Below, one piece after another: positions 4,231 to 48,400 of a DNA stretch of 64,000 bases. A program made the translations under genes and the position numbers. The stretch's first letter is position 1. Every line of letters starts with the position of its first letter. The DNA comes from Rheinheimera sp. SA_1 (GTDB taxonomy: Bacteria > Pseudomonadota > Gammaproteobacteria > Enterobacterales > Alteromonadaceae): NCBI RefSeq assembly GCF_001669775.1, contig NZ_LXWK01000019.1, positions 1 through 64,000 on the forward strand. Reading direction: 5' to 3'. The notes beneath the pieces are model-generated. The model saw only the letters and a list, made by a program, of their open reading frames with translations. It was not told the origin of the DNA and did no database searches.

Positions 4231-4234
4231 TTTT

Positions 4235-9500: not shown

Positions 9501-10415
9501 ATGAGTGAGAGAAAGTTTAAATTTACCCCAGAGCAACTGGCATTTTTCCGTGAAAATGGCTACATAGGTCCACTCGACCTGTACGAAGCCGAGTTTATTA
9601 AAGAAAAATACCGCGATATCCGAGCAGACATTTTCGACAGAGCTAACTGCGCCTATAACCTGCCACACAATAGCTTGTTGGCTGGTTATGACCGCCATCT
9701 CGATATCGAGTTCTTTACAAAACACATCTCTCAGCCACGGATTGTTGACAAGGTACAAGACATTTTAGGCCCTGATCTGCTGTGTTGGCGTTCTGAAATG
9801 TTCCCTAAATATCCTGGTGATGAGGGTACTGACTGGCATCAGGCAGACACTTTCGCACACGCATCAGGCGCACCGCAAATAGTTTGGCCTGGCTCTAGTG
9901 ATTTCGGTGGCGCCATTACCGTGTGGACGGCTTTAACTGATGTAACCGAAGCAAATGGTTGCCTGCGCTTCATCCCTGGTACCCACGAAGAAATGTTCTA
10001 CGACGAAACCAAGGATATGAAGTATTCACCGGAGATGGTTAACAATCTGCAGAAAAACGGTATCAAGCGTGGCTTCTTCGGTTACGACTACAGAAACCTG
10101 CAAAAAGACCCGAATTTTGTACCAGACGAGTCTAAGGCCGTATCTATCGAAATGAAGGCGGGCCAGTGTGTTATTTTCTGGTCCACGTTGATGCACGCTT
10201 CATATCCAAATTCAACCACAGATCAAACTCGTTTGGCGGTGACCGCTCGGTATGTTCCGACCAGCTGCCAAGTGTATCCAGGTACAGATACAGTGGAAGA
10301 ATATGGCAGCATTTTGTCTCTTGATAAATATGGTGTCGTTTTGGTGGCCGGTGAAGATAACTTTAAGCACAATAAAGTTATTACTGAGAACCTGCGCGGT
10401 GTTCCATTTAAATAA
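9501..10415 (+). CDS. Non-haem iron/2-oxoglutarate halogenase, SyrB2 type
   Basis: A 304-residue member of the PhyH-like superfamily, nearly the length of SyrB2 (310). It is strikingly similar to SyrB2, for example KYPGDEGTDWHQADTF and FWSTLMHASYPNS. The deciding residues are His113-Gln-Ala115: hydroxylases carry Asp or Glu at the third place, while halogenases of the SyrB2, CytC3, BarB2 and CmaB group have Ala, which frees a site for chloride. His232 is the second iron ligand and Arg250 fits the 2-oxoglutarate-binding Arg. Such enzymes chlorinate unactivated carbons of an aminoacyl group held on a carrier. The start is ATG 9501, nine bases after GGAG; the in-frame TTG at 9486 is less likely. 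It is the last gene of the operon and is followed by a hairpin. Confidence 0.95.
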   Translation: MSERKFKFTPEQLAFFRENGYIGPLDLYEAEFIKEKYRDIRADIFDRANCAYNLPHNSLLAGYDRHLDIEFFTKHISQPRIVDKVQDILGPDLLCWRSEMFPKYPGDEGTDWHQADTFAHASGAPQIVWPGSSDFGGAITVWTALTDVTEANGCLRFIPGTHEEMFYDETKDMKYSPEMVNNLQKNGIKRGFFGYDYRNLQKDPNFVPDESKAVSIEMKAGQCVIFWSTLMHASYPNSTTDQTRLAVTARYVPTSCQVYPGTDTVEEYGSILSLDKYGVVLVAGEDNFKHNKVITENLRGVPFK

Positions 10416-30400: not shown

Positions 30401-33400
30401 TTCGCACAGCGTGCCTATCGGCAAACCGATGCACAATGTGCGGTTCTACGTACTCGATGGTCATCGCCAACTGGTGCCAGCCGGGGCGATAGGTGAACTT
30501 TATATCGGTGGGACATCGCTGGCCAGAGGTTATCTGAACCAGCCGGAGATGACGGCGCTGCGTTTTGTCGCAGATCCTTTTGCCGATGCGCCGCAAGCGC
30601 GCATGTACAAAACGGGCGATCTGGTGCGTTGGCTGCCAGATGGCAATATTGAGTTTGTCGGTCGAGTGGACCATCAGGTCAAAATCCGCGGCTTCAGGGT
30701 CGAGCTGGGGGAAATAGAGGCAGTGCTGGCGGCACAGCCGCAACTGAGCGATGCCGTTGTCACCGTTGATGCAAAAGGCGACGATGCGCAACTGGTCGCA
30801 TATGTATGCCCGAGTCAGGACTACCTGCGGGCTCGGGCGGATGAATACAATGCTGAACATGTTGAACAGTGGACATTAGTCAACGATGACAAATATGCCG
30901 ATTCGCTGGCGGTGGCGGAACCGGCAAAGGACAACTTTACCGGCTGGAATTCTTCATATACCGGCAGCAGGATTGCACAGGAGCAGATGCTGGAATGGCT
31001 GGAAAATACCGTCGCCGACATTCTGGCGCTGCAGCCCCGGCATCTGCTTGAAATCGGCTGTGGCGGCGGCTTGTTGCTGTATCGCTATGCCAGTCACTGC
31101 GACAGCGTCTATGGGATGGATATTTCTGCCGTAGCTCTGGCTGGTTTGCAGCAGGAGCTCGATCAACGAGGTTGGGATCATGTGAAGCTGCAGGTGGGAG
31201 ATGCTTTGCAGCTGGAACAACTGGCTGGCCGGGAGTTCGATACGATAGTGATCAATTCGGTGACTCAGTACTTCCCGAATCAGCTGTATCTAGAGCAGGT
31301 TATTGCCAGGTTGTTACCCTGTCTGGCTGATGGCGGCCGCATTTTTATCGGCGATGTTCGCAATCTGGATTTATTGCATGCCCATCTTGCTGCAGCCGAG
31401 CAAAGCCACCTGAATCAGAGCTGTCCGCTGAAAACGGTCGCCGCCAGAGTGCAAAGACGGCTCCAGCAGGAACCCGAACTGCTGATCAGCCCGTCGTTCT
31501 TTGCGCAGCTGCCGACACGCTTCGCTGCCCTGCCAACAGTGGATATTCTGGTTAAACGCGGGGTCGGTGACAATGAGCTGCTGCGATATCGCTATGACGT
31601 GATCCTGCGCAAGCATTCGGCGCAGCTGCGCCAACCGGCTGAATTGGCCTGGTCGGAGTTTTGCGGTTTCGATCAGCTTGAAACCAAGTTACAGGCCACC
31701 GCAACCGGCAGTTTCGGCATTTATGGCGTACCCAACAGCCGGATCGAGGCTGATCTGGCTCTGGCGACCGGTCTGGTGCAATGGGCGGCAGAGCATTTGG
31801 TCTATCCGTTGGCGCAGCCGGGGTCGCTTAGCGTTGCGGCCAATGCGCAGTTGCAAAGGCTTGAGCAGCTGTTGACCTATGCCGGACAGCAGGGTTTCCG
31901 CGCCGGCATGACCTGGTCGCAGGAACAGCCAGGGATGTTGGACCTGATCTTCAGCCGAGAGCAGGACAGGGCAATACTCGCCAGAACGGCCTATACCCGC
32001 GGCAGGTTGACCAATTTCCCGCAAATGGCCAGGGTTGCTCAACAGCTTGGCGGCGAACTCAGGCAATCCATTCGGACTATGTTGCCTGATTACATGACAC
32101 CAGTGTTGTATATCGCTATGGAACAGCTGCCGTCGACGCCCAGTGGAAAAGTAGATAAAAAAGCGTTGCCGAAGCCGGAAGACAACGATTTGCAGCGCAG
32201 TGCCTATGTGGCGCCTCGCAATGAAACCGAACAGACATTGTGTACGCTGTGGCAGTCCTTATTGAATCTTGAAAAGATCGGTGTCGACGATGACTTTTTC
32301 GCTCTTGGCGGCCATTCACTGCTGGCGACTCGGCTTATCAGCGCTATCCGTCAGCAGTTTGCCACCGAATTACCGCTCAGAACTTTGTTCGAGAACCCAA
32401 CCATTGCCCAGCTTGCCGTCAGCCTGACCCAGCATAGCGAGGTCTTTGTACTGCCTGAAGTTCGTAGGGCAGACCGCAGCGGTCCGTTGCCGCTGTCCTT
32501 TGCCCAGCAAAGGTTGTGGTTTATTGACCAGTTGGGTCAGGGCAGTGCCCAATACAATATGCCGGGCAGTCAACTGATCCGGGGGCATTTCGACGATCAG
32601 GCATTTGAGCTGGCTGTGCGGACTTTGTTGGAGCGCCACGAAGTGTTGCGGACGCATTTTGTCGCAGTCAATGGCGAGCCGCAGCAAGTGATTAAAAGCG
32701 ACTTCCAGCCGGATTATTGCAAAGTCGACTTGACTGCATTGGATGCGGCTGCGCAAATTGCCGCAACCAATCGTTACGTCGCAGAACAGGCCGACAAGGC
32801 ATTTGATCTCAGCTGCGATCTGATGTTCAGAGTAAAGGTGCTGCAGCTGGCTGCCGATCTGCATCTGGTACTGTACACCACACACCATATAGCCGGCGAT
32901 GGCTGGTCGGTTGGCATTATGCGCAATGAGTTGAGCAGCCTGTACGCTGCCTATCGCGAGGGGCGGGCCAATCCGCTGGAGCCGCTCAAGGTGCAATATG
33001 CCGATTATGCCCAGTGGCAGCGGGACTGGTTGCAAGGCGAAGTATTGGCTGGTGCTATGGCCTACTGGCGCCGCCAGTTGGCGGACCTGCCTATTTTGCA
33101 TAGCCTGCCGCTCGACAAACCGCGGCCGGTCGTCCCTGCTCATGATGGACTGGTTTATCGGCAAGTACTGGACAGCGCCTTGACCAGCCGTCTGAAGCTA
33201 TTATGCCGCCAGCAGGAAGTGACCCCTTTCATGCTGTTGCAAAGTGCGTTTGCGTTGCTGCTCGGCCGTTACAGCGACAGTGATGACATCGTGATAGGGA
33301 CTCCTATCGCCGGGCGAACCCATGTCGATATAGAACCGTTGATCGGTTTTTTTATCAACACCTTAGTATTGCGGACTCGCTTGGTAGCGGAACAGTCTTT

Positions 33401-36400
33401 TGCCGAATTGCTGCAAGCCAATAAAAAAGTCATTTTGGATGCGTATGCCCACCAGCATATTCCTTTTGAAAGCCTGGTCGATCAACTGTTGCCAGAACGG
33501 GATATGAGCCATAACCCGCTGACTCAAATCCTGTTTGCCGTGCAGAATATGGAACGCGGCTTTCTTGATCTGTCGGAGCAACAGCGGGACGCTATTGCAG
33601 CCACCGATGCTAGTCGCGAGGTTCGGCGCAGCAATATCAGATTTGATTTGGAAGTGAATGTGCATGAACTTGCCGACGTAATGACGGTGAGCTGGGGTTT
33701 CGATGCCGCCTTGTTTGAGCTGTCGAGCATAGCGCAGCTGGCGGCATCCTATCAGCAACTGCTGCTCAGCATCGCGGACAGCATGCAAAGGGGGTTGTGC
33801 GGCACTGCGCCAGTCGATGCCGGTCAATATCGCTATTACAACTATCTTGAACAGCGGTTGGCGCGGCCGGCACAGCCTAACGATATCCTGCTGTGCCGAG
33901 CCTATACGCTGAACGCCCAGGTTAATGCCGAACTGATGTTGCAGGCGATGCAGCAGGTTGCCGAGCGGCATCAACTGCAAAGCCGCAGCGCTGGGCAGGT
34001 GCCGGCTGTTGTCACGCTAACGGCGTCGGACGAACTGCATGAGCTGATTGCCGCCCACCAAAGTGCGGCTGCCGATCCGGCCCGATGCGAGCCTTTGTTG
34101 TTATGCCGCAATCTTGCCGACAACCGATATATTCTGCTGCTGACATTGGGTGAGCACAGTGCCGATAGCACCAGCTTTACTATCCTGGTGCGTGACATCG
34201 ACCGACTCTACTGTGCATTACAAGCCGGCAGGTTGTCGCCGCTGCCGGACTTATCGCAGCAATATCTGCATTGCCGGCAACAGCAGCTCAACCCTGAATT
34301 GAATGAAACTGCCGTTGAAAAGCTGCGCAGCCAGTTCAATGGCATGCCGCCGCTGCTGCGACTGCCTCTGACTGCCGCTCGCAGCGAACCGGCGCTGGTT
34401 CGGGCGGCTGCTGTCGAGACAGTCATTGAACGCGCTTTATATATCCGCCTGCAGGCTCTTAGCCAGCAACTCGGCAGTTCGGTCGAGCTGGTGCTGGTAT
34501 CTGCTTTTGCTGTGCTGCTTGGTCGTTATGGCCAGACGGACGACTTGTGTATCGGCATGGAAGTTGATGACCGGGTCCGGTTCCGCACTGGCCAACTGCT
34601 GGGTAATTTTAAACGTTATGTGCCGCTGCGCTGCAAAGTATCGGCTCAGCTGCAGTTTGCCCAGTTGGTCAGCCAGAACAGAGACCGGCTGCAAAGTGCG
34701 CTCAATCTTGGCATGTTGCCATTGGAAAGGCTGCTGGAAGCGCTTGATGTGCCGGTCAGCAGCGCACATGCAACTTTATTCCAGGTCAGTTTTGCATTGC
34801 GTCATCAGCGAGCGGTGCCTGTGCCGTCTTCAGTTTTTGCGCTGGCTATGCTTAGCGATAATTTCAGTTGTACCAGCACGTCCGCTTGTGCCCAGGGACA
34901 GGATTTGGCATTGGTACTCGATGAATCCCTGGCCGGTACCACTGCAACGCTGAGCTATGACTCGACGCTGTTTGACGCATCAACACTCAGTCAGTTGCTG
35001 GCCCGCTTCGTCAGCCTGTTGTCGGCTGTTGTGAACTGTCAGGGCGCTCCACTGGCCGAATTGTGGCTGCCGGAAACCTGGATCAGCCGACTGCCATTGG
35101 CCGCGGTTGAATCGATGCAGCCGCCGGTATCCGTGGCGCTTTGGTCACAGCGACTCGCTGCGTTTTCAGCAGCAGAGCCTGATACTGTGGCGGTGCAAGA
35201 GATGACTTTTGCTGAACTCGAACACAAAGCCAGCCAGTTGGCAAACCGGCTTGCAGGCTGTCGTGGCCAACTGGTGGCATTGGCTTTGCCTTCTGCAGTC
35301 GAACTGGCAGTCGCTATCACTGCCGTCATCAAAGCTGGGGCTCGTCTGGTCAGACTATCCGGTACGATACCAAGCCTGCGTACAGAACAGATCCTGGCAC
35401 AATCCGGCTGTCAGTGGCTGCTAGACAGTGTTGAACCGCAGCAGAGCGGCCTGCATGCCATCACCGTCGCCGGGCATGTCACTGCGGAACCGGCAGTTGA
35501 ACCGGGCATCGTCTGCTATGAGCTGCTGTTTGCTGCGACCGGCCAATTGCACCTATCAGCACTCACTGAGCAACAACTGAGTGATGCGCTGGCGCAGTCG
35601 GCTGCGACAGTACCAGCGCAACTGGCGCTGCTGCTGAGTGACAGCTTTGTCGCGACGCCAAGGCAAATCCGGGATCAGCATGATATGACCGTGGCGACAG
35701 GTGCTGTTGGTCAGCTGTATTTCTGGTCCGCTTCGCACTGGGTGCGCAGCGCCAACCGCGGGCGTCGCCTGCCGACAGGCAGCATTGCGGCAGTGGTGGC
35801 CAAACCTGTTCAACGCGCGGCGCGCCAGGCAGTCTGCGACCGTCTGACATGGGCTTTGCAGCGGCACCAGGCTGTGGTGGAAGCTGTGAGCCTCGCGATA
35901 CCGGGTTCTACCAGTCTGGTCAGCTATGTGGTGCTTGATGGCAAAGTGCCACTCCTGCAGGGGGACAAATGCCCTACTCAGGTATTTGTGACTGATTTGC
36001 GCCTTAACAAAGTGCTGGTGCCTTTACCAGCAGAAGTGTTGGTGGTGCCATATCTGCCGCGGCTACGCGATGGCAGTCTTGACCTGGCTGCACTGCCGCA
36101 ACCGATGCAGCTTGCTGCGACAGCCGAACCTTATGTCGCACCTGCCGATGAGACTCAGATGTTGCTGTGCGCAGTCTGGCAGCAACTGCTGGACCATCAG
36201 CAGCCTGTCGGGGTCAATGATAACTTCTTTGCCCTGGGTGGACATTCATTGATAGCCACCAGGCTTACCAGTGTGATCCGCGAACATTTTGCGGTGGAAC
36301 TACCGCTCAAAGTGCTGTTTGAAGCGCCGACCGTTGCTGCGTTGGCGGCTTTTATCAAAACCGCAGTGCAACAGCAGGACCATGCGTTTGTGTTGCCGTC

Positions 36401-36461
36401 GATAGCGCCTGCTGAACGATTCGGCGGCAATGGCGAACCAACCGAGGAGTTTGAGTTTTAA
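21423..36461 (+). CDS. NRPS protein 2: four modules M3-M6, one N-methylating, last with eroded A domain
   Basis: 5012 residues. Order: TubC docking (1-55), C (HH at 205), A (Asp235 at 738), T (Ser1100); C (1290), A (1809), T (Ser2152); C (2341), A with inserted N-methyltransferase (Asp235 at 2873, SAM loop EIGCGGG about 3210, Lys3576), T (Ser3632); C (HHIAGDG at 3821), then a second degenerate C-like domain (4137-4555), a relic A domain (about 4570-4898) and an intact T (Ser4942). Pockets: M3 D-L-P-R-V-G-H-V-G-K (Asp-like), M4 D-V-W-H-V-S-L-I-D-K (serine, a standard code), M5 D-A-Q-K-V-A-E-V-G-K (Asx-like, unassigned). M6 cannot activate its own substrate because the ATP loop is absent and Lys517 is Ser4885, yet its carrier keeps GGHSL. 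The acidic tail is GEPTEEFEF. The stop codon abuts the next ATG. Confidence 0.95.
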   Translation: MSVNDLFDDAGEQGVLLYLKGGKLAIKAKKDALTPELKARIVEHKTAIIEYLQQFETEESNYLPPPAVKAERSLPLQPSFAQLRLWFLDQLAGSVQYNLTGHFLLEGELQRPAFTQACQLLLERHEVLRTCFVAVAEQVYQQINPIVALPLQFFDLSDSEQQTKQLQQLIRSYSLQPFDLSKDLMIRLLVITFSEHSHLVYYTLHHIAADGWSKGILQQELNLLYQACQLGEPNPLPPLELQYADYAHWQRQWLQGKVLDLALGYWTTQLADLPQVHNLPLDKPRPARQRFIGHLHQHRLDTVLSECIDTFNRNNNTTLFMLMHTVLTLFVSRYSGERDIVIGTAISGRVLHEFEPLVGLFINDLAIRAQLIDNQSFAELLQAHKQTILEAYAHQHVPFEMLVEQLNPQRNLSYSPLYQLKIDVQHSVESWEQGSAAELAGAAGPAEQSLDAVTEYSLKNDLHLNVIYGKTGILLQWRFNTDLFADSTIARWSNSFVQLLGQVIANPQLSWQAFDLLCETEQRCVLDFGRGPAAVGESLPLLHRHITEQASRTPSAVAVCCGASTLSYAELEQQSNQLAHYLLSKGVQQNSIVAICMERSVDMPIALLGVLKAGAAYLPIEPHLPSERIDYMLADCRCQWVVTDSNLMQELAFAGCRVLPVDAPYRHSLLAGQPVSPPPLQQTLHDLAYLIYTSGSTGTPKGVMVSHHGLSTYCDYAKERYYQPDLAGSLVATSYSFDLTVPALYLPLLSGGQVRLLLEHDELAALAGQLHHSSQPFLLRLTPSHIAGLLPLLTERSDIAHTFVIGGEALPARLCQALQVLLPNARLYNHYGPTEAVVGCCSYQIGAVTEQTQRYQPIGTPMRDTQLLVLNERLQLCPIGVTGELYIGGGGLALGYSNNPALTAERFVHNPFAGSADSRMYRTGDLVRWLPDGNLQYVARLDHQVKLRGRRIELGEIEQALSAVQGVLDCAVKVWNDSNGQRLVACVVSAARLQHDLIDETELLRRKEQLIMQYRKQLAARLPDYMVPQIYLFLDSLPLARTGKLDRNRLPDPTEADLIKSQYVAPRNDTESRLCQLWQQVLQLTQIGIDDDFFLLGGHSLLATRLINLVRSSFGVELDLRVLFETPTVAAMAVALTQLTADSVVLPPVVRSERSAMMPLSYAQRRLWFIDQLGEGSRQYNVSGQFFIEGEFQQSDFAAAAQALVARHEVLRTNFVAVDGEPGQLIRHDVTVPFWYHDFSLLQPAQQQTAAGAQIKAMFAAAFDLSTDVMFRLAVLKLAPTQYGLFYAMHHIASDGWSKGIVQQELTALVAGQTLPVLAVQYADFAIWQQHWLQQQMLTQQLNYWRQQLADLPVVHQLPLDGPRPAYQNHQGKVIQQQLNRHVSDSLARACQDQGVTPFMVLETAFAVLIGKYSAERDIAIGTPIAGRTHGSLEPLIGVFINTLVLRTDLRGNPTFSQLLQRQRQIILDAFTYQHVPFELLVDELRPERSLSHNPLVQLSFVMQNNDKDRLSSGSAAAQDQAGFIVTDSLSIKYELELAATELADGWQLSWAFQSAVFAQHSIVAMAANFQTLLQQLLEDMNRGPMMERGIDAVRWLSEQEKQFLRSCNETAAPFSAVTIHQQFEQQVLATPMATAVVDAQQSLSYAQLNLLANRLANRLLALGIRLDEPVGVMAERSVELTVAVLAILKAGGCYVPLPPEYPAARLQYMVQNSGLTKVVCCAAVSSTTLPEHLQRVAAMQPQGAEQNPSTRVDGDNLCYVLYTSGSTGVPKGVAVSHRALVNRIDWMQQQYRLDATDRILQKTPYSFDVSVWELLWPLTSGATLVLAKPQGHQDVDYLAGIIAEQQITLLHFVPSMLSAFLATNGWHRCDSVRQVVCSGEALSRQLQQQFFGAAAHCDVSLDNLYGPTEAAIDVTHWRCIPDSSRVPIGKPIQNIQLYVVDQLLQPVATGCTGELLIGGVALARGYINRPGLSAASFIADHLSGTAGGRLYRTGDLVRRGHDGNIEYLGRLDHQIKIRGQRIELAEIETVLAAVTAGRELVVQANEAAQLVAYYVAEGDEQHWQQVFAQRAAAMLPGYMRPAAYVRLTHLPLNDNGKIDRKALPQAATVSQHSYVAPTSPLEIRLCLLWQQILQVARVGIHDDFFRMGGHSLLATRLVSAIRRQFAVELPIRALFEFPTVAGLADRLQALSEDFVLPDIDKADRQQALPLSYAQQRMWFLDELGEGSAEYIMPGYCILHGEFDEEALRRALHQVLQRHEVLRSHVADENGVLRQVIVEQFELPLAIYDLKLLEPSERLRQIQWLRNKNSTALYQLNRDLMLRAALLKLSSSEQLLLYSLHHIAGDGWSMGILAQELQALYQAERTGVAAQLPALPVQYADYAQWQRSWLQGDVLEQQLAYWRQQLAGLPPVHSLVLDKPRPARQQFQGHAFSQKLDSRTTRDLQLICQQQGVTLFMLLETAFSVLLSRYSNSTDIVVGTPIAGRIHQDLEHLIGLFVNSVVLRTNLSGNPQFSQLLAENKQTILAAYDHQHLPFDMLVEDIRPERDISYNSLFQILFVVQNAEHEPLDIQLPQQGLSAVKPVSIRFDMAVHVAEVAGELLLVWSYRDSLFFDETMRRMAENYSTLLQSIIAQLTGQAPAGGIEQLPMLSAAEQQLLLVQYNSSAADFPTGQCVQQLLEQQVARTPDKVAVICQDEAISYRELNGRANRLARYLLAQGAKPDSLVALSVRRSIDAMVALFGILKAGAGYVPIDPHYPPARYDYMLRDSGATIIVSQLGELDTQDTSGCHVVYLDDMTFRQTAAATAADNIEPEAIGLQPTHMAYMIYTSGSTGQPKGVMVNHHSVINFLYSATALFMTDDIDGSIVSSALTFDATVQSLYLPLMAGKFVELLPPDDEQLFVAMNDYLLDDESRLIFKLTPTHLKGMAAQTVVARNPQSRHVLVVAGEQLTRETLQPWFTERLPNCRFINEYGPTECTVGSCTYEVTSLDFPTASHSVPIGKPMHNVRFYVLDGHRQLVPAGAIGELYIGGTSLARGYLNQPEMTALRFVADPFADAPQARMYKTGDLVRWLPDGNIEFVGRVDHQVKIRGFRVELGEIEAVLAAQPQLSDAVVTVDAKGDDAQLVAYVCPSQDYLRARADEYNAEHVEQWTLVNDDKYADSLAVAEPAKDNFTGWNSSYTGSRIAQEQMLEWLENTVADILALQPRHLLEIGCGGGLLLYRYASHCDSVYGMDISAVALAGLQQELDQRGWDHVKLQVGDALQLEQLAGREFDTIVINSVTQYFPNQLYLEQVIARLLPCLADGGRIFIGDVRNLDLLHAHLAAAEQSHLNQSCPLKTVAARVQRRLQQEPELLISPSFFAQLPTRFAALPTVDILVKRGVGDNELLRYRYDVILRKHSAQLRQPAELAWSEFCGFDQLETKLQATATGSFGIYGVPNSRIEADLALATGLVQWAAEHLVYPLAQPGSLSVAANAQLQRLEQLLTYAGQQGFRAGMTWSQEQPGMLDLIFSREQDRAILARTAYTRGRLTNFPQMARVAQQLGGELRQSIRTMLPDYMTPVLYIAMEQLPSTPSGKVDKKALPKPEDNDLQRSAYVAPRNETEQTLCTLWQSLLNLEKIGVDDDFFALGGHSLLATRLISAIRQQFATELPLRTLFENPTIAQLAVSLTQHSEVFVLPEVRRADRSGPLPLSFAQQRLWFIDQLGQGSAQYNMPGSQLIRGHFDDQAFELAVRTLLERHEVLRTHFVAVNGEPQQVIKSDFQPDYCKVDLTALDAAAQIAATNRYVAEQADKAFDLSCDLMFRVKVLQLAADLHLVLYTTHHIAGDGWSVGIMRNELSSLYAAYREGRANPLEPLKVQYADYAQWQRDWLQGEVLAGAMAYWRRQLADLPILHSLPLDKPRPVVPAHDGLVYRQVLDSALTSRLKLLCRQQEVTPFMLLQSAFALLLGRYSDSDDIVIGTPIAGRTHVDIEPLIGFFINTLVLRTRLVAEQSFAELLQANKKVILDAYAHQHIPFESLVDQLLPERDMSHNPLTQILFAVQNMERGFLDLSEQQRDAIAATDASREVRRSNIRFDLEVNVHELADVMTVSWGFDAALFELSSIAQLAASYQQLLLSIADSMQRGLCGTAPVDAGQYRYYNYLEQRLARPAQPNDILLCRAYTLNAQVNAELMLQAMQQVAERHQLQSRSAGQVPAVVTLTASDELHELIAAHQSAAADPARCEPLLLCRNLADNRYILLLTLGEHSADSTSFTILVRDIDRLYCALQAGRLSPLPDLSQQYLHCRQQQLNPELNETAVEKLRSQFNGMPPLLRLPLTAARSEPALVRAAAVETVIERALYIRLQALSQQLGSSVELVLVSAFAVLLGRYGQTDDLCIGMEVDDRVRFRTGQLLGNFKRYVPLRCKVSAQLQFAQLVSQNRDRLQSALNLGMLPLERLLEALDVPVSSAHATLFQVSFALRHQRAVPVPSSVFALAMLSDNFSCTSTSACAQGQDLALVLDESLAGTTATLSYDSTLFDASTLSQLLARFVSLLSAVVNCQGAPLAELWLPETWISRLPLAAVESMQPPVSVALWSQRLAAFSAAEPDTVAVQEMTFAELEHKASQLANRLAGCRGQLVALALPSAVELAVAITAVIKAGARLVRLSGTIPSLRTEQILAQSGCQWLLDSVEPQQSGLHAITVAGHVTAEPAVEPGIVCYELLFAATGQLHLSALTEQQLSDALAQSAATVPAQLALLLSDSFVATPRQIRDQHDMTVATGAVGQLYFWSASHWVRSANRGRRLPTGSIAAVVAKPVQRAARQAVCDRLTWALQRHQAVVEAVSLAIPGSTSLVSYVVLDGKVPLLQGDKCPTQVFVTDLRLNKVLVPLPAEVLVVPYLPRLRDGSLDLAALPQPMQLAATAEPYVAPADETQMLLCAVWQQLLDHQQPVGVNDNFFALGGHSLIATRLTSVIREHFAVELPLKVLFEAPTVAALAAFIKTAVQQQDHAFVLPSIAPAERFGGNGEPTEEFEF
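30855..31620 (+). other. N-methyltransferase domain inside the M5 adenylation domain
   Basis: Inserted between A8 (DHQVKIRGFRVELGEIE) and A10 (TPSGKVDK), the usual place for NRPS N-methyltransferases. The SAM-binding loop is LEIGCGGGLLLYRY, followed by GMDIS and INSVTQYFP. It should methylate the amide nitrogen of the M5 residue while it is on the carrier. A closely related domain is in M7. Confidence 0.9.
33830..35085 (+). other. Extra condensation-like domain without catalytic His (M6)
   Basis: Directly after the active M6 C domain comes a second C-fold segment of about 420 residues with the family landmarks VAERHQLQSR, DIDRLYCALQAG, LVLVSAFAVLLGRYG, LLGNFKRYVPLR, MLPLERLLEAL and LFQVSFALRHQ. 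The active-site motif HHxxxDG reads GEHSADS (near 34150-34175): both His are changed and only the Asp stays. It cannot be an ordinary condensation catalyst. Such dead C-like domains can serve as recruitment platforms, as the X-domain of glycopeptide NRPS does for P450 enzymes; here that role is a guess. Confidence 0.8.
35130..36115 (+). other. Eroded adenylation domain of M6
   Basis: About 330 residues instead of roughly 510. The start is recognisable (FAELEHKASQLANRL, then AITAVIKAGARLVRL for A1-A2). The A3 ATP loop TSGSTGxPKG has become FAATGQLHL, A4 and A5 with the substrate pocket are missing, and A10 reads RLRDGSLDLAALP with Ser4885 where the catalytic Lys belongs. The frame is fully open and the following carrier domain is intact. 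This looks like tolerated loss of activation, not a broken gene. Confidence 0.85.
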
Positions 36462-39400
36462 ATGGTTGCTGAATTAATTACCCAACTGAAAAACGCTGGT
36501 TTTGAGCTGCACGTTGAGGCAGGCAAACTAAAAGTCCGAGCGCAGAAGGGAGCGATGTCCGCTGAAGTTTCTGAGAAAATTAAGCGGTATAAACATGAGC
36601 TTATCGAATTTCTGCAGCTGGATGATAACGCAACTGGGCCGCTGGCGTCAGCAGCGCAGTATGTGCCATGGTTGTCCTATGCCCAGCAGCGGTTGTGGTT
36701 TATCGATCAGTTGGGTCAAGGCAGTGTGCAGTACAATATTCCCGGGCGTCTTGAGCTGCATATAGCGCTGGACATTGAGGCACTGCGTAGCGCTTTGGCT
36801 ACTTTGCTGCAGCGCCACGAAGTGCTGCGCACCCGGTTTGCTGAAATTGCCGGCGAGCCGCGGCAAATCATCAGTAACAGCTACGATTTGCCATTGACTG
36901 AGCACGATTTGAGCCATTTGCCGCAGGCAGAGAAACGTCTGCAGTTGCGTCAGTTGGTTAAAGCGGAGGCGATGACGCCTTTTGATCTGAGTGCGGATCT
37001 GATGCTGCGGCTGCGGCTGATTCGGCTGGAACAAGCGCATTACCTGCTGTTATATACTCAGCACCACATCGCCAGCGACGGCTGGTCAATGAACATTCTG
37101 CAAAAAGAACTGACCGAACTGTATCACGCTTATGCGCAGGGTAAGTCAAACCCGTTGCCGCCATTGCCGATCCAGTACGCTGACTACGCTAAGTGGCAGT
37201 TGGAATGGCTGCAGGGCGACGTGCTGCAACAGCAACTTGACTATTGGCAGCGGCAATTGGCCGATTTGCCAAAGGTTCACCAACTGACGACCGACTACGT
37301 CAGGCCACTGCAGCAGTCCTTTGAGGCAGGGCGCTACCGCCAGCAACTAAGCCGCGACTTGTCGGCAGCCATCAGACAGTTGTGTATATCCCACGAAGTG
37401 ACGTTGTTTATGTTTCTGCAAACGGCTTATGCACTGTTGATAGCCAGGTTCAGTAACAGCAACGATGTAGTGGTGGGGACGCCTATTGCCGGCCGCACTC
37501 ACAAAGATGTGGAAGGGCTGCTGGGCTTTTTTGTCAATTCGTTGGTGCTGCGGACCCGTTTGCCGCAGGAGTCGGATTTTGGCGCTTTGCTGGCGGCCAA
37601 CAAGCACATGATTCTGGACGCTTATCAGCATCAGCACGTGCCTTTTGAAATGTTGGTTGAAAAGCTGTGTCCTGAACGGGATTTGGCATATAACCCACTG
37701 TTTCAACTGCTGTTTGTGGTGCAGAATAATGAACAGGGGTTGTGGGACAAACCATCGCGCAGCGAAATGGGGCCGCAGAGCGATGAGTTGAGCGACAGCT
37801 TTGCGACGACCAGGTTTGATCTGGAACTGCATGCCTATGAAACCGCGGGCCAGCTGTCATTTAAGTGGGTGCGCAATGTCGCACTGTTCTCGGCCGGGTC
37901 GTTGCAAAGGCTGGCCAGTGCTTTTGAATTGTTGCTGCAGTCGATAGTCACTGCGTTGCAGCATCCGGCAACGGCCGGCACCAGAGTGTCCGGCCTGGCT
38001 TTGCTTGATGACGGTGAAATCGCCAATTTGCAGCATCACTGGCAGGCGACGACGCAGCCATTTTTGCAGCATAGCTGTGTCCATCAGCTTTTCAGCCAGC
38101 AGGCAGCCAGCACTCCGGCTCAGGTAGCAGTGCGCTTTGGCGAGCGGACTTTTAGTTATGCCGAACTCGAAACCACGGCCAACAAGCTAGCGCATGCGCT
38201 TGTTGCCCAAGGCGTCAGGCCGGGCGATTTTGTCGCTCTGGCAGTCGAACGAACTGAATGGATGCTGGTAGCTGTGCTGGCGGTCTTAAAGGCGGGAGCA
38301 GCTTATCTGCCGTTGGACCCCGACTATCCGCCGGCCAGAATACAGCAACTGCTGGCGGATTCTGCTGCGGTTGTGTTGCTGAAACAGACCGGTCATTTGA
38401 ACAATGTGACTTTTGCCCAACCGGTGCTGCTGCTGGAGCAAGCCATCGCCGAAGCGGCTTGGCCCACCACGACAGTGAGCCAGGGCGTCGGGCTCAGTGC
38501 AGATTATCCGGCTTATGTTATCTATACCTCGGGTTCGACTGGTCAGCCCAAAGGGGTCGTCGTCAGCCATCGCAATCTGATGAACTATCTATGCCACGGC
38601 TTGGGCTACCTGCCGACGCATTTGGCCGGTTCGGTCGTGTCAACTGCGTTGGTGTTTGATGCCACTGTTTGCTCGTTATGGTTGCCGCTGATAAGCGGTA
38701 AGACCGTCGAGTTGCTGCCGCAAGATGGCAGCATGATTGAAAAACTGGTCGATTTTCTGCTGGACGACGACGAGGCGATGTTATTCAAACTGACGCCGTC
38801 TCATCTGGTCGCTGCATTGCATTCGGCCATGCTGACGGTCAATGAGCAGGCTCGCCATGTTCTGGTTGTCGGTGGGGAACAGCTGAGCGGTGCTTTGCTG
38901 AGCAAATGGACCAGCTATTTCCCACATTGCACTGTGATCAATGAATATGGCCCCACTGAAGCAACTGTTGGTTGCAGCACTTATCGTTATTTGGCCGCAA
39001 CTGCCGATGCCGAACCGCCGGCTGCAATAGCAACCGGCAGTGTTCCTATTGGCCGACCCATCCAGAATATGCAGCTTTATGTGCTCAGCGATACGCTGGA
39101 TCTGCTTCCTATTGGCACGCCTGGTGAATTGTACATTGCCGGTGCCGGCGTGACCGATGGTTATGTTGGCCGTGCTGCGGCCACGGCCGAACGTTTCGTA
39201 CCCAATCCGTTTGCCCGCCAGCCGAGTGAACGGATGTACCGAAGCGGTGATTGGGTTCGGTGGCGGCCGGATGGCGAGCTGGAGTTTTTGCGTCGGATTG
39301 ATGAGCAACTGAAAGTACGAGGTTATCGGATTGAGCCTGCGGAAATTGCGGCCACTTTGAGCGCTTCGACCTTGATCAGCAATGCCATAGTCGACCTCCA

Positions 39401-42400
39401 CCAGATGGCCGAGCAATCGCCACAACTGGTGGCTTATGTGTCGCCATCCCAGCAGTGGCTTGTCCAACTGGCGGATAACCATAACCAGGACAATATTTCG
39501 CAATGGACCGGTGTCTTTGATGACACCTACAGCGATCCGACCACAGGCTACCTGGCCGATCTGAACTATGCAGGTTGGAGCAGCAGCTATACCGGTCAGA
39601 CGATTGCAGCTGATCAGATGGATGAGTGGCTTGCTGAAACCTTGAAAGTGATCAAGGCACTAAACCCTGGCAATCTGCTGGAGATCGGTTGCGGCACCGG
39701 GCTGCTGTTGCTGCGCTATGGCGCCAATTGCCAGCGTGTACACGCAGTGGATATTTCCGCAGCTGCGCTGATGAATGTCAAAACAGAGCTGCAACGCCGT
39801 AATTGGCAGCATGTACAACTGCTCAAAGGCGATGCGTTGTGCATCGCCCATTTACCGTCGGCCCTTACATTCGACACTGTCGTCTGCAATTCGGTGGCCC
39901 AGTATTTCCCCAATGTGCGCTATTTTGAGCAGATGTTGGAGTTGGCGCTGGCAAGGCTCGATACAGGTGGTCGGATCCTGCTGGGGGATATCCGCAACCT
40001 CGATCTGTTTGCGGCTCATGTGACGGCAGTCGAGTATGGCAGGCTCAGCAGCGCAATCCAGCTGCAGACACTGGCTCGGCGTGTACAGCGAAGGATGCAG
40101 CAGGAGCAGGAGCTGTTACTGAGTCCAGGTTATTTTGCCTGCCTGCAGCAGCGATTTTCCGGGCTTGGCCGCGTTGATATTCTGGTCAAACGAGGCGTCG
40201 CTGAGCATGAGATGATTCGTTATCGCTATGAAGTTGTCCTGACCAAAGGCCAACCTGCAGCCGAGGTTGCGTTCAGTTGGTTTGATTTTGCCGGTCTGCA
40301 GCAAATGCGCGCGTTAGTGGAAGCGACCGCTGAAAGAGTCTTTGGCATCAGTGGCATAGACAATCCTAGGATCAGTGCCGATCTGGCTTTGCATACTCAA
40401 CTGACCGAACTGAGCAGCAATTTGCACCTGCAGCCGCCGGACAATCCCGGCAGCTTCAGTGCGGCGGCGATGGCGCAAGCGACTGAACTTGAATTGCTGC
40501 TGCAGCATGCCGAGCAGTTGGGTTATCGGGTTGCTTTAACCTGGTCGCAGCAGGCTCCGGGCCAATTGGATGCGATTTTCAGTAAAGACACGATGCCTCA
40601 GGTACAGGCCCGTCATCGCTATCAAAACGGCTATCTGGCCAATCATCCGTTGCTCGGCAATGTGGCAGGGGTTTACACGGAACAGCTGAAAAGCTGGTTG
40701 GGGACCAGGCTGCCAGCTTACATGCTGCCTGATGTGTTTGTGGTGCTCGAGCGTATGCCATTGACTATCAACGGCAAAATAGATCGCAAAGCATTGCCGG
40801 TGCCGGATGAGCAGGACTTGCAAAAAGCCAGCTATGTGGCGCCGACCGACCAAACGCAGCAGCAGCTGTGCGAGCTATGGCAACAGGTGCTTGGCCTGCG
40901 CCAGGTTGGTATTCATGACAACTTTTTTGCGCTGGGCGGACATTCATTGCTGGCTATCCGCCTGATCAGCCGGATCCGGGCCGAATTTGCCACTGAAATT
41001 CAGCTGAAAATGCTGTTCGAAGCTCCGACGGTGGCAGAGTTGGCGGAGCAAATCCGCCACCGGCAGGATGAGGTGGTGCTACCTGCGATTGTGCGAGTAG
41101 ATCGCGCTATGCCGCTGTTGCTGTCTTATGCCCAGCAGCGGTTATGGTTTATCGATCAACTGGGCGAAGGCAGCACCGAATACAATATGCGTGGCAAGCT
41201 GTCGCTGGAAGGGGATTTGGATCTGGCCGCGCTGCAAAAGGCGCTGTCGGCAATGCTCGAACGCCATGAGGTGCTGCGTACTTGTTTTGTTAGCGAAGAT
41301 GGCGAACCACGGCAGGTGATCCTGACGGATTATCCGTTACCGCTGCGTTGCTATGACTTGTCCGGACTTAACGAGCAAGCCCAGCAGCAGGAGCTGGCAA
41401 ACCACAGGCGACAGGAAGCCGGCACTGCTTTTGATTTGCGTCGTGACCTGATGGTGCGACTGCGTCTGTTGCAGTTCAGCAGCTGCCGCCACATCTTGTT
41501 GTATACCATCCATCATATAGCCGGTGACGGCTGGTCGATTGAAATATTCCAGCAGGAACTTGCGCTGATGTATCGGGCTTTTGCTGCAGGCGAGGCTGAT
41601 CCGCTGGCACCGCTGCAGATCCAATATGCCGATTATGCCGCCTGGCAGCGCCAGTGGCTGCAGGGAGAATTGCTGGCACAGCAGTTGGCATTCTGGCAGC
41701 AGCAATTGGCAGGGTTGCCGCAAGTGCATAGCTTACCGCTTGACAAACCGCGGCCACCGCGCCAAAGCACCGTAGGCAGAGGCTTGCACCATGTGCTGGA
41801 TGGCAGGCTTGGCAAAGCGTTGAAAACTATATGTCAAAGCCGGGATCTGACGTTGTTTATGCTGCTGCAAACGGCGTATGCGGTACTGTTGTGGCGCTAT
41901 AGCAACAGCGATGACATCGTGATGGGCTCGCCGGTTTCAGGTCGTAGCCATCACGACATCGAAGGTTTGGTGGGCTTTTTCGTTAATACATTGGTGCTGC
42001 GCAACCAGGTTTCCGCTGAACAACGGTTCAGCGAGCTGCTGGCACAGAACAAACAGCAGATCCTGGCAGCCTACGCTCACCAGCATGTGCCGTTCGAGAT
42101 GCTGGTAGATGAGTTGGTACAACAGCGAGACATGAGTTACAACTCATTGTTTCAGCTTCTGTTTGATGTGCAGCCTCAATCAGGTTTTATCTTTCCCAAT
42201 GCACCTGCAACCGAGAAATTTCGCTTGGTCGAGCATCTGGGCGTTCGTTTCGATTTAGCTGTGCATGTTTCGGATTATCGGGACGGCATCGCGCTACGCT
42301 GGTCATACCGCGACACTTTGTTTGAAGACGACACTATTCGGCGTATGGCGCAGAATTTCGAGGTACTGCTTGACAGCATCGTCACAGTGTTGCAGGACAA

Positions 42401-45400
42401 CAGCGGCCAACCGGAGCCTGCACTGTACCAGTTGAACTGTATTGATATCGCCGAGCGCGCCACTTTGCTGACAAAGTGGAATGACACTGCGCGCGAAGCG
42501 CCGCATCGCTGCGTCCATCAACTGTTCGAAGAGCAGGTTGAACGCACGCCGACTGCCGTTGCAGTGATTTTCGCCGAGCAGCGGCTCAGCTACCGTCAAC
42601 TCAACGAGCAGGCCAATGCTCTGGCTCATCAGCTGCGCGATTTGGGCGTTGGAGCTGATGTGTTGGTTGCGCTCTGTGTTGAGCGTAGCATTGACCTGAT
42701 GATTGCGCTGTTGGCCATTCTGAAGGCCGGCGGTGCCTATCTGCCGGTTGATGCCAGCTATCCGCTGGCTCGTATCGAATATATGCTCAACGACAGCGGT
42801 GCCGGTGTGGTCGTGACTCAGCGCAGCCTACAGAAACGATTGCCGCTGGCAGGGCGCACCTTGCTGTTGCTGGATGCAACCGACTTAGGTTCTGCGCGGC
42901 CCAGACAAAGTTCGCCGCCCGAAAACCCGGCTTTAACACCGGATAACTTGGCTTATGTCATTTATACTTCGGGCTCTACCGGCCACCCCAAAGGCGTAAT
43001 GGTCAGCCATCGCAATGTGGCTAATTTCCTGTCGGCGGTCAAAGAGCGTTTTCTACTGGATGCTGTAGTCGGTTCTATTGTCAGCTCGCCTGTTGCTTTT
43101 GATGCCACTGTCCAATCCTTGTATCTGCCGCTGCTGCATGGACTTTATGTTGAACTGCTGCCGGAACAGGATGATCTGATTGCCAATCTAGCCGACTATC
43201 TAGTGGATGATGAAGTCCGTCTGCTGTTTAAAATCACGCCTGCCCATTTAAAGGGATTGGCCCAGTCTGGGTTGGTCAGCCCGCATACCGGTGCCAACCA
43301 TGTTCTGGTGGTCGCTGGCGAACAATTGACGGCTGATGTGTTGGCGGTATGGCGGCAGGAATTATTGCCCAATGCGGTCTTTATTAACGAATATGGTCCG
43401 ACCGAATGCACGGTCGGCAGTTGCATCTTAGACACCCGCGACTGGCGGGCACCTGATGCCATCAGCGTGCCGATAGGGCAGCCGTTGGCCAACTATCGCT
43501 TTTATGTGCTGGATCCGCAGATGGCATTATTGCCGGCAGGCGCGGTCGGAGAATTGTATATCGGCGGAGCCGGCGTTGCCCGTGGTTATCTGGGACGGCA
43601 GGATTTAACGGCCGACCGTTTCGTGCCGGACTGTTTTAGCAGCGAATCTGCTGCCAGATTGTACCGTACAGGCGACTTGGTACGCTGGTTGCCGCAAGGC
43701 AATATCGAATTTCTCGGCCGGATAGACCATCAATTGAAGCTGCGCGGTTATCGGATTGAACCGGGAGAAATCGAAACTCAACTGAAACAGGCTGCAGCAG
43801 TTCACGATGCCGTCGCGGTGACCCGCCAGTTAGCTGATGATGTCAGCTTGGTGGCCTATGTCGTCGCCAAACCGGCCGAAGCGGCATTGGCATCACAGCT
43901 TAAAACGATGCTGCAGGGCCAATTGCCGGCCTTTATGGTGCCTGCTGTGATAGTGATACTTGCCGAATTGCCGCTGACACCCAACGGCAAGGTAGATCGA
44001 CAGGCGCTGCCGGCACCGGATGCACAACACAATCCGGCAGATGGTTATGTAGCGCCGCGCAGCGCGCTGGAGGCCACTGTGGCCGGGATTTGGCAAACAG
44101 TGCTGGGGCTCGCGCAAGTCGGCATCCATGACAATTTCTTTGCGTTGGGCGGCCACTCTTTGCTGGCCACCCGGCTGATTAGTCGGATCCGGCAGGTCTT
44201 TGCTGTTGAGTTGCACCTGCGTGAATTATTCGAGGCGCCGACCGTGGCTGAGTTGGCGGCCCAACTGTCGTTTGCTGACGGCCGTTTTGTGCTACCGGCC
44301 ATTATGCCGGTGGCAGCCGGGCTGGCGCCGTTGTCTTATGCGCAGCAGCGGCTGTGGTTTATCGATCAGTTGGCGGGCGGCGGTTCGATTCAATACAACA
44401 TGCCAGGCCGCTATCTGCTCAACGGCCATTTTGTCCCCGATGCTTTCAGGCGTGCTGTCGCGGCTATTATTGAGCGGCATCAGGTGTTGCGGACCAACAT
44501 CGTTGTGGTGGACGGCGAAGCCAGGCCGCAGTTGCAGCAACAATTTGAGCTGCCGTACCGCGAACATGATGTTTCGCAGCTCGACGGCGCCCAAAAAGCC
44601 AAAGCGGTGGAGCAACTGATAGCGGAAGAAGCCTGTACCGCTTTTGATTTAGCGGTTGATCTGATGCTCCGCACTAGAGTGGTGCGACTGCGGGACAAGC
44701 AGCACCTGATTCTGTTTACCTTGCATCATATTGCCAGTGATGGCTGGTCGATGGGGATTTTCAGCCGTGAACTGACGACGCTTTATGCCGCTTTTGCCGA
44801 ATGCGCGGTCGACCCGCGGCCTGCGTTGAAAGTGCAGTACGCTGATTACGCTCACTGGCAGCGCCACTGGTTGCAGGGGCCAGTGCTCAGGCAGCAGCTG
44901 AATTACTGGCAGGAACGTTTGGCCGGTTTGCCGGCTGTGCACGGCTTGCAGCTTGACAAGCCGCGCCCGGCAAGACAATCGTTCGAAGGAGGGCGCTTCC
45001 GCCAATTGTTGGATGCCGCCGCCACCGCGAGGCTTAAAGTGTTGTGCGAGCAGTACCAAGTCACACCATTTATGCTGCTGCAGAGCATTTTTGCTGTGTT
45101 GCTGGCCCGCTACAGTGGTCAGACGGACATCGTGATAGGCACGCCGGTTTCAGGCCGCAGCCACCAGGATACCGAAGACCTGATTGGCTTTTTTGTCAAT
45201 ACGCTGGTGCTGCGCAGCGATTTGTCCGGCAACCCGGATTTTGTTGACGTGCTGGAGCAAAATCGCCGCCATGTTCTGGATGCCTACGCCCATCAGCACC
45301 TGCCATTTGAGATGTTGGTGGAGCAGTTGAATCCTGAGCGAGCCTTAGCATTTAATCCATTGTTTCAGATACTTTTTACGGTACAGAACAACGAACAGCT

Positions 45401-48400
45401 ATCGCTCGACTTGCAGGCGGATGGCGAGCAGGAACCCAATTTCAGACAAGTGTTGAGCAACAGGTTGAATGCAACTTTTACCCGCACCAGATTCGATTTG
45501 GAGGTGCAGGTGATTGAACTGGCTGATGGCTTGGCCATCCGTTGGATTTACAATCTGGCTTTGTTTGAGATTGACAGTATGGTAAGGCTGTCACAGAGCT
45601 TTATGCAGTTGATTCACAGCGTGATGGATTCGTTGCACCGCGATGGCGGTCGCACTGCGGTGGATACGCTGGCACTGGTGGCCGCACCGGCACCGGTTGC
45701 CGTACCGCCCGCAGCCGGTCAGTCTTTGCAGCAACTGGTTCAGTTGCCGGTTTTACCGATAGTACAGTTGCGGCCGGCCCAGTTGGTCGCGGTATGTCTG
45801 ATGGAGCCGGTAAACGCCGTTTTGGCGCTTTTAAACGCCGGCTGTGGTTTCAGTTATATTCCGGCTGACGTACCGGCGCTGCGGGTCGCAGCTCTGCTGG
45901 CACAGAGCGGTTGTTGTCTGGTCGTGGTGGATGCCGACACCCGGCCTTTGCTTGAACAGGCTCAGCGTGCATTACCAACTCAGACGCTGCAGTTGCTGAT
46001 GCTGCAGGATATCGGTGCTAATCTGTCGACTGCCGGGGCTGGGCTCAGTGAAGTCGCCATGCAGATTGGTGCAGACCGCTATTCGCCAGCAGCTTTGGCT
46101 GCGCTGGTGCAGGGATTTGCTGCCATAGACCCGCAGGTGGTTCAGGTGATGTTCGGCGCAACGGCGACTGTGCTGGCAGGACTGCATGAGCGGCTTGGTC
46201 CAGCCGAGCCTGTTACAGCTCCGGTCGAACCTTGTTTACGGCATGGTGTGCAATGGGCACCGCCTGGCGCTGTGGCAAATTTTGATATCGCGGGTCCGGC
46301 CTTACCGCTACACAGTGATGGTTTTTACCGGACCGGCCTGCTGGCTCGTCAGGGCGCTTCCGGCGCTTTGATATGGTGCCGGCCATCAAATGGAAATCCG
46401 CAGCGTGCGCTTTATGAATTGCAAAACAGACTGCAAAAACTGCCTGCCATCCGTCAGGTTCAAGTACTGCGGGATGCCAGCGCCGGCTTGGTGTGCTATT
46501 ACGCCGGCGATCTGACCGAAGCGGTGCTGTGTCAAAGTCTGCGAGAGCAGACGCCTGTGCTGCCGCTACCGAATCTCTATGTGCATCTGGATCAACTGCC
46601 GCTGGGTACATATGGCAACGTCGACATCGCAGCATTGCCGCAACCCTGGCGCCAGCAGCAACGGCCGTTGGCGCCGCGAACGGATATCGAACGCGCGCTA
46701 CTGGCAATTTGGCAACAGGTATTGGGGATAGAGCAGATAGGCGTCAAGGACAATATCTTTGCCCTCGGCTGCCATTCGTTGCTGGCGACCCGACTGGTCA
46801 GCCGTATCCGCAGCACTTTTGGTAAAGAAATTGCCCTGGCGGCTCTGTTTGAACAGCCGACTATCGCCGAGTTGGCAGATCATATTGCGGCAACGCCGGA
46901 TATTGCCATGCTACCGGCCGTTCAACGGGTACCGCGAGACGCTAAACTGGCCCTTTCCTATGCGCAGCAGCGTTTGTGGTTTATTGACCGGTTGGGCCAG
47001 GGCGGAGCGGCTTATAACATGGCGGGCCGTATGACATGGCGCGGAGAGTTGATTGAACAGGCGTTCAACGCTGCCGTAACGACGATATTTGAACGTCATG
47101 AGATACTCAGGACCCTTTACCTGGAACAGGACGGTACGCCATATCAACAAATCCAGCCGGCCACGGCGGCTTTGGTCGATTTCATCGACTTGTCTGCATG
47201 GTCTGCAGCAGAGAAAACCGACGCAGTGGCGGCGCAAATACAGGCTGAAGCCCAAACGCCTTTCGATCTCAGCACAGATTTGATGCTGCGGTTTCGTGTG
47301 TTGAAACTGGAACCGCAGCAGCATCTGGTGCTGTACACCTTCCATCACATCGCGGCGGATGGTTGGTCGCGGATGCTGTTGCAAAATGAGTTGTCGGCGC
47401 TTTATCTGGCATACAGTGCCGGGCATGTGAATCCGCTGCTGGATCTGAAAGTGCAGTATGCCGATTACGCGGCGTGGCAACGGCAATGGTTGAATGGCGA
47501 ATTGCTGCGGCGGGAACTTGATTACTGGCATTGTCAATTGGACCGGCTTCCCGCGATGCATGGGTTGCCGCTGGATAAACCAAGACCGGCGGTCGCCGGA
47601 TTTACCGGTCGCAAAGTGCTGCTGGTCCTTGATGCGACCCGGACCGCCCAACTGAAGGCGCTGGCAACGGCACAAGAAGTCACGTTGTTTATGTTGTTGC
47701 AAAGCGCATTTGCGGTGTTGCTTGGCCGTTTCAGCAGTGAGACGGATATTGTGATGGCCACGCCGGTCGCCGGGCGCAATCATGCCGATGTGGAGCCGCT
47801 GCTTGGCTTTTTTGTCAACACGCTGGTGTTGCGCTGCAACTTGGCCAGAGCCGATCGTTTTGTTGATCTGCTGGGGCAGAATAAGGCGATGTTGCTGGCT
47901 GCTTTTGCACATCAGCATGTGCCTTTTGACATGTTGGTGGAACAGCTGAGCCCGGTTCGTCAACTGAGCCACAATCCGCTGGCACAAATCCTGTTCGCTT
48001 TGCAGAACAACGAATTGGGCGTGGCAGATCAACAGCTGCAGCTAAATCGTGAACTGGTGCGCAATCAGGCGCGTATCGAAGGGAGCCCGCACGGCATCAA
48101 GTTTGACCTGGAATTGAATGTGATGGAAGTCGCCGGCGAGCTTGCCTTTAGCTGGGGTTATGATACGCAACTATTCGAAGCGGCCGGCATCGTTCGGCTG
48201 GCCGATTCGCTGGTGCTGTTGCTGGATGCGGTGTTGCTGGACGTTGCTGCGCCGATATACAGCTTGCCGGTTCTGACTGCACAGCAGCTTGAGCAGCAGC
48301 TGCTGTGCGGCAATCTTTGTGTTGCTGCCTGCCCGGCTGCAGGGTCGATACATCAACTGGTGGAGCAGCATGCGGTCAACCAACCGGCTGCGGCGGCATT

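Follow-up and report, generated by a model that had tools for sequence, protein, structure and literature searches.

Inactivated adenylation domains in two nonribosomal peptide assembly lines of Rheinheimera sp. SA_1 and a neighbouring halogenation set that may load their carriers

In cystobactamid biosynthesis, module 3 of CysK contains an inactive adenylation (A) domain without the A10 lysine and is loaded by CysH via CysB, a SyrC homologue (PMC7966384). The DNA analysed here, the first 64 kb (64,000 nucleotides, hereafter the window) of the 195-kb contig NZ_LXWK01000019.1 from the 5.16-Mb genome of Rheinheimera sp. SA_1, encodes comparable modules in a nonribosomal peptide synthetase (NRPS) assembly line. 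Modules 6 and 9 (M6 and M9) have dead A domains flanked by condensation (C) and carrier (T) domains that keep their motifs, and an earlier note on this DNA had predicted that both are loaded in trans by a separate A enzyme, carrier and halogenase encoded nearby. CysK module 3 resembles M6 and M9 in having an in-line A domain inactivated through loss of the A10 lysine, a live T domain, a separate A-T enzyme and a SyrC-like shuttle. As far as the available text describes the cystobactamid system, it differs in having one dead module against five here, and in involving hydroxylation, methylation and an AMDH domain with no halogenation described; its shuttle was tested by mass spectrometry, whereas the shuttle here is a candidate only.

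Syringomycin SyrE module 9, together with SyrB1, SyrB2 and SyrC, shares with this locus a free A domain and carrier, a halogenase of the same family and charging from outside, but that module has no A domain, is the sole such site and is the last module (PMC8949500). In albicidin, ramoplanin and enduracidin an inactive in-line A domain is complemented by a stand-alone A-T protein, at one site each and with no halogenase mentioned in the accessible part of the source (PMC8949500). In legonmycin (LgnA/LgnB/LgnD) a stand-alone A-T protein loads an assembly-line carrier through LgnA, a type II thioesterase shuttle that transfers Thr between carriers, although the text available describes neither a dead A domain nor a halogenase (PMC8748450). 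Retention of a relic A domain in frame is not as exceptional as the earlier note had held, with one each in the available accounts of cystobactamid, albicidin and ramoplanin. The loading of dead A modules in trans is therefore known; what this locus adds is how many sites there are, how the remnants group and that dead modules appear to have been copied. No report of several dead A domains per line loaded in trans was recognised, by title and abstract opening, in searches of an open-access library.

The assembly line that includes M6 and M9 (line 1) is encoded by five consecutive NRPS genes (14683-21426, 21423-36461, 36462-50150, 50147-60025 and a last gene running from 60022 beyond the window end) and comprises 14 modules, M1-M14, plus a terminal C domain. 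Within the 5012-aa protein (21423-36461) M6 is the fourth module, and within the 4562-aa protein (36462-50150) M9 is the third. Their domains, and the C domains that would accept their products, are as follows (window coordinates).

32487-33782, plus strand: M6 C domain, intact (HHIAGDG; PF00668 329.6 bits, and motif)
33783-35072, plus strand: M6 second C domain, degenerate (GEHSADS for HHxxxDG; PF00668 108.9 bits, profile 126-447 only)
35073-36164, plus strand: M6 dead A domain (Ser4885 at the A10 Lys; A3, A5, A7 Asp and A8 lost)
36165-36356, plus strand: M6 carrier, intact (LGGHSL; PF00550 63.7 bits)
36672-37967, plus strand: M7 C domain, intact, which would accept the chain from the M6 carrier (PF00668 355.8 bits)
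44322-45635, plus strand: M9 C domain, intact (HHIASDG; PF00668 322.6 bits)
45636-46694, plus strand: M9 dead A domain (Asn3386 at the A10 Lys; A3, A5, A7 Asp and A8 lost; hhalign 97.1%)
46695-46886, plus strand: M9 carrier, Ser kept (LGCHSL; PF00550 68.3 bits)
46947-48293, plus strand: M10 C domain, intact, which would accept the chain from the M9 carrier (PF00668 337 bits)

The inactivation of both A domains is borne out by alignment with 27 live A domains, namely 26 of the 28 live cis A domains of the two lines encoded on the contig and the free-standing A enzyme; M5 and M7, which have methyltransferase insertions, were left out of the alignment and checked for A3 and the A10 Lys only. All 27 live domains have A3 Lys, A5 Glu, A7 Asp, A8 Arg and A10 Lys; the M6 and M9 segments have none of these, have also lost A4 and retain A2 and A6 in part. 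The loss of the ATP loop and pocket and the replacement of the lysine by Ser4885 and Asn3386, as the earlier note had described, hold up in this comparison. So does its statement that the upstream C motif (HHIAGDG/HHIASDG), the carrier Ser (GGHSL/GCHSL) and the reading frame are kept: the M6 and M9 remnants contain no in-frame stops, against 4-17 stops in each of the other five frames. The profile search against AMP-binding domains that the note had proposed returned a 102-residue N-terminal piece for M6 (43.5 bits) and no Pfam AMP-binding match for the M9 segment, though the C and carrier matches there are strong. Against a 26-row profile of the live A domains, hhalign aligned M6 with a probability of 98.5 over nearly the whole remnant and M9 with 97.1 over the C-terminal 150 residues. 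An assembly error or frameshift as the source of the dead domains is ruled out by the open frames, and an identity other than A domain for these segments by the hhalign homology. Two details of these modules stand apart. In the M9 carrier motif GCHS (window 46767-46778) a Cys adjoins the phosphopantetheine site, and in M6 the degenerate second C domain sits between the C domain and the A remnant, where it could be either a relic or a recruiting platform.

The two sites of the earlier note become five, over two lines, when the organism's own genome is searched with PF00501. A second assembly line of 19 modules (line 2, P1-P19; contig 91019-157008) lies 26 kb downstream of line 1 and holds three more dead A domains.

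Contig 121529-122725: dead A domain of P9
Contig 130935-132038: dead A domain of P12
Contig 144738-145862: dead A domain of P16

Among the matches listed, the short PF00501 matches within NRPS genes of this contig are those of M6 and those at 121613, 131019 and 144801; the match at 131019 falls under the family cut-off, and M9 is too degraded for Pfam. In the other NRPS loci of the genome, on another contig, no short A match lies within the NRPS genes among the matches listed. The A10 Lys, A7 Asp and A5 Glu are present in 0/5 remnants and in 27/27 live A domains. All five are similarly shortened, with a stretch from C domain to carrier of 353 aa in M9, 364 in M6 (counted after its degenerate C domain), 399 in P9, 368 in P12 and 375 in P16, compared with 509-568 aa in the 26 live modules without methyltransferase. 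The region from A3 to A5, which includes most of the pocket, is largely deleted, while the N-terminal part up to the neighbourhood of A2, a piece around A6 and the C-terminal subdomain are retained. A profile built on the locus's 27 live A domains scores the five remnants at 50-89 bits and left-out live A domains at 378-651 bits.

The dead modules are probably used. Their C domains (313-365 bits) and carriers (42-68 bits) score within the live range in all five cases, whereas the second C domain of M6 has decayed to 108.9 bits. A second line of evidence comes from kinship, which also makes the decay look old rather than recent. The remnants of P9, P12 and P16 form a supported group in the tree (98/86) and match one another over 276-375 aligned columns with 62-75 bits and 28-30% identity, while the best single-piece match of a line-2 remnant to a live A domain of the locus is 48 bits. 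They are 32-34% identical to each other in direct comparison, a similarity 13-15 standard deviations above shuffles, and with profiles built from the remnants of line 2 only, the left-out P9 and P16 come out ahead of every live A domain and P12 comes second (75.3 vs 71.9 bits). All five remnants fall on one side of a branch (80/89), with long end branches. M9 matches the line-2 remnants (hhalign E 2.5e-9, residues 47-353) and, slightly better, the live A profile (E 6.2e-11, C-terminal part); M6 is nearer to the live profile (2.3e-15) than to the line-2 profile (3.8e-6), the live profile being the deeper one. A single origin of all five is possible on these data. Identity at fourfold sites among P9, P12 and P16 is 38-47% in both the C domain and the remnant (no saturation baseline), and between P9 and P16 the C domain is 50% identical and the remnant 33%. 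Together with the protein similarity above shuffles this fits, but does not prove, a remnant fold that is under selection and changes faster than C and T.

The C domains of the dead modules cluster by line, not by deadness. GGDS carriers occur in 3/3 dead and 4/16 live modules of line 2, a post hoc and weak enrichment (hypergeometric 0.036), and we read such carriers as preceding epimerising elements. In line 2 the C domains of P9 and P16 pair as sisters (SH-aLRT 98), and those of P10 and P17, the modules that come next, do so too (100; SH-aLRT values only), as if a dead module had been copied along with its neighbour. In line 1 the C domains of M6 and M9 are mutual nearest relatives (53%), and the preceding modules M5 and M8 are mutually nearest in both A (53%) and C (52%) and have a common specificity code, DAQKVAEVGK, so that M5-M6 and M8-M9 look like a copied two-module pair (window 28038-36356 and 41118-46886), despite the methyltransferase that M5 has and M8 lacks. 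Dead modules have probably been copied and kept, and hence used. We consider it very probable that they are in use, and somewhat probable that they are loaded by a separate A enzyme. The set that could do so is encoded upstream of line 1, in the same window as M6 and M9.

7677-9161, plus strand: free-standing A enzyme, code DALWLGGTFK (PF00501 251 bits)
9174-9431, plus strand: free-standing carrier (GVSSL; PF00550 40 bits)
9501-10415, plus strand: SyrB2/CytC3-type non-haem iron halogenase (WHQA; TIGR01762 434 bits)

This spare set is real and looks intact, as the earlier note had stated from the sequence. The free A enzyme keeps its motifs. The halogenase scores 434 bits with TIGR01762 against a cut-off of 226.3, aligns to SyrB2 (2fct, E 2.5e-116) and CytC3 (5.4e-108), and has HxA in place of HxD within a WHQA motif that aligns to SyrB2; judged by its sequence, it is a true relative of SyrB2 and CytC3. 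The residue is a different matter. The free A code DALWLGGTFK is predicted, from its pocket positions and the usual meaning of such codes, to be of valine type; SyrB1, as far as the available description goes, is a single A-T protein activating threonine, whereas A and carrier are separate here. The analogy to chlorothreonine that had been drawn from syringomycin fails on this point, and chlorothreonine as the residue is rejected on the valine-type code. CytC1/CytC2/CytC3, a valine/aminobutyrate set, likewise consists of separate A enzyme, carrier and halogenase. Among solved relatives of the halogenase here CytC3 ranks second, but the free A enzyme has solved A domains much closer to it than CytC1.

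Among the live A domains compared, the nearest to the free A enzyme is that of M12 (38% identity; 95/69 in the tree), and the code of M12 and P13, DAFWLGGTFK, is close to its own. The codes of P6 and P10 (VDATYSIADK) and P17 (VDATFSIADK) belong to modules preceded by P5, which has a valine code, and by the dead P9 and P16, respectively. P4 and P8, each one place further upstream, have the code DLFNNALTYK in common and are sister A domains. P4-P5-P6 and P8-P9-P10 thus look like copies whose valine position is live in the first and dead in the second, although in their C domains P5 and P9 are not mutual nearest relatives, which counts against this copying. The best hint that the valine-type free A enzyme may now serve a dead position in line 2 is this pair.

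Two enzymes are candidates for moving a residue from the free carrier to the assembly lines.

Contig 89273-90157: alpha/beta-hydrolase with a Cys nucleophile (GYCSG motif; PF00561), in an operon-like row with MbtH, ABC exporter and CmlA genes
Window 274-1125, minus strand: type II thioesterase (GHSLG; PF00975 159.7 bits), candidate release enzyme of the free set or shuttle

The Cys hydrolase is the best candidate from its sequence and the thioesterase the second. SyrC and CmaE also have a Cys nucleophile. Among 368 other genomes of the class sample no homologue of the Cys hydrolase was found at E 1e-15.

The explanation we favour, tentatively and as something a little short of probable, is that the free valine-type A enzyme, carrier and halogenase, with an acyltransferase, load M6 and M9. 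M6 and M9 would be working elongation modules whose own A domains are dead, with the remnants retained as a folded linker or platform. The free A enzyme would charge the free carrier, the halogenase would chlorinate the carrier-bound residue, and an acyltransferase of the SyrC/CmaE/CysB kind would transfer it to the assembly-line carriers, which are thus charged from outside the module before the C domains condense the residue. The three dead modules of line 2 may be served by the same set, and the incorporated residue would be chlorovaline-like. With five sites over two lines, the expectation of one or two chlorinated residues in the earlier note cannot be derived. Of its proposal that M6 and M9 are loaded in trans, outside loading stands as the best explanation; the link of the free set to M6 and M9 is one of neighbourhood only. 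A stronger version, in which the remnants are a dedicated pseudo-A domain without catalytic function, derived once and since spread to both lines, that serves as an address label for one shuttle, so that one free A enzyme and halogenase place the same chlorinated residue at five positions in two peptides, seems to us quite unlikely.

Several results weigh against the favoured explanation. The carriers of the five dead modules have no diagnostic residue in comparison with 28 live ones, two columns being mildly enriched. The Cys hydrolase matches generic alpha/beta-hydrolases only, which leaves SyrC homology unsupported, and it adjoins line 2, about 79 kb from the halogenase. Third-position GC content (GC3) is 0.46-0.48 in the free set, 0.57-0.61 in the lines and 0.39-0.54 in eight other contig genes, and transposase pieces (DUF772; DDE_Tnp_1 under cut-off) lie between the free set and line 1. 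At E 1e-40 a relative of the halogenase was found in 1/368 other genomes of the class sample. In genome G697 a related halogenase (56% identity) occurs together with an A enzyme, carrier and thioesterase, their roles read from translations, and the 40 kb read of that 126-kb contig contain no NRPS. The identical code of M5 and M8, the modules directly upstream of M6 and M9, speaks for loading by a neighbour in line 1. Its host-like GC3, the transposase pieces, the G697 set and the M5/M8 code limit the link of the free set with M6 and M9 to one of neighbourhood. As for the remnants, when each of the five in turn is left out of the profile, live A domains score higher than the omitted remnant for M6, M9, P12 and P16, with P9 just ahead, and in view of these scores and the long branches a single group is claimed for P9, P12 and P16 only. 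The remnant tree joins P12 with P16 (98/93) where the C tree joins P9 with P16, a disagreement that leaves the order of copying in line 2 unsettled. Relatives elsewhere are scarce. The M9 remnant matched 11/59 other genomes at E 0.001, all with short, weak matches (best 37.6 bits), and had no match in genome_contigs. The five-remnant profile, run on 394 genomes of the order including the organism's own with at most five candidates scored per genome, gave long matches in the own genome only and partial ones in others, among the matches listed; 25/26 loci fetched from other genomes had ordinary A motifs (A7, A10, A3 or A5) and the last A7 and A10. In genome_contigs the line-2 profile picked out, among the matches listed, one Rhodobacter locus, whose A domain is live and ordinary.

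Dead-module carriers may alternatively be charged by a live A domain of the same line, M5 charging M6 and M8 charging M9. The identical code of M5 and M8 (M7 has DACKVGEVGK), their mutual nearness and the resemblance of the M6 and M9 carriers to those of M5, M7 and M8 (59-66% identity) all agree with this, and precedents exist, as far as the accessible parts of the sources go: SidD module 2 has a truncated, inactive A domain charged by SidD A1, SidC has two modules without any A domain and with live T domains (PMC10192304), and CmnI of capreomycin has an A-less module loaded by the A domain of another module (PMC12400406). SidD and SidC differ in being fungal and in drawing on another A domain within the same protein. 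In line 2 the modules ahead of the dead ones have different codes (P8 DLFNNALTYK, P11 DVWHFSAIDK, P15 DAGKVAEVGK), so that three separate repeats of such loading would be needed, and the free A enzyme and halogenase would be left without a use. On balance we regard loading within the line as rather unlikely.

The free A enzyme, carrier, halogenase and thioesterase may instead form a pathway of their own, releasing a chlorinated amino acid in free form, with the dead modules loaded otherwise. The G697 set, lacking an NRPS in the 40 kb read, is itself possibly a pathway to a free chlorinated amino acid, and the host-like composition of the Rheinheimera set, its separation from line 1 by transposase pieces and the type II thioesterase at 274-1125 point the same way. 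This alternative appears doubtful to us given that the set and line 1 share a contig, the set being upstream, and that the 195-kb contig holds, among the matches listed, no second free-standing A domain beside a free carrier; the one other A domain outside NRPS genes belongs to a 650-aa protein that reads like an acetyl-CoA synthetase. The G697 set (contig C45, 29000-43500) adjoins genes that read like an aspartate-semialdehyde dehydrogenase, a pyridoxal phosphate enzyme and an EamA transporter. Skipping, in which the chain passes M6 and M9 without addition, is very unlikely even though deletion of the cystobactamid shuttle gave, in the text available, a shorter product starting at module 4 (PMC7966384), as the C and carrier domains of all five dead modules keep their catalytic residues and live-range scores and the dead modules seem to have survived copying, whereas unused C and T domains would be expected to decay like the second C domain of M6.

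If loading by the free set is true, one external loading set serves several positions in two large assembly lines, a defunct catalytic domain may be reused as a placement signal, and the locus offers a natural rule for placing a non-standard residue at chosen positions of nonribosomal peptides. Counts of A domains would misjudge product length and residues, with 5/33 modules missed here.

Beyond the modules discussed, the C domain that closes line 1 lies at contig 63478-64857, and Pfam finds no thioesterase domain in the last protein. At the start of line 2 (contig 91019-94627) stand a polyketide-type dehydratase, an FkbM methyltransferase and a carrier; ahead of its first C domain no A domain is listed. 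The stretch between the two lines encodes a TauD oxygenase, a CmcI-like protein and transporters, and line 2 is adjoined by the genes for CmlA, the ABC exporter, the Cys hydrolase and MbtH, the CmlA-type diiron beta-hydroxylase gene occupying contig 85753-87468 (minus strand). The codes of P6, P10 and P17 (VDATYSIADK kind) lack Asp235 and resemble beta-alanine codes. An aspartate decarboxylase (PanD) gene of 133 aa (window 3853-4254, minus strand; Pfam run on 85 aa) could supply beta-alanine to modules of this type. Adjoining it at window 4688-5206 (minus strand) is a frame resembling phosphoenolpyruvate mutase, possibly broken, with an extra open piece in another frame at 4386-4566.

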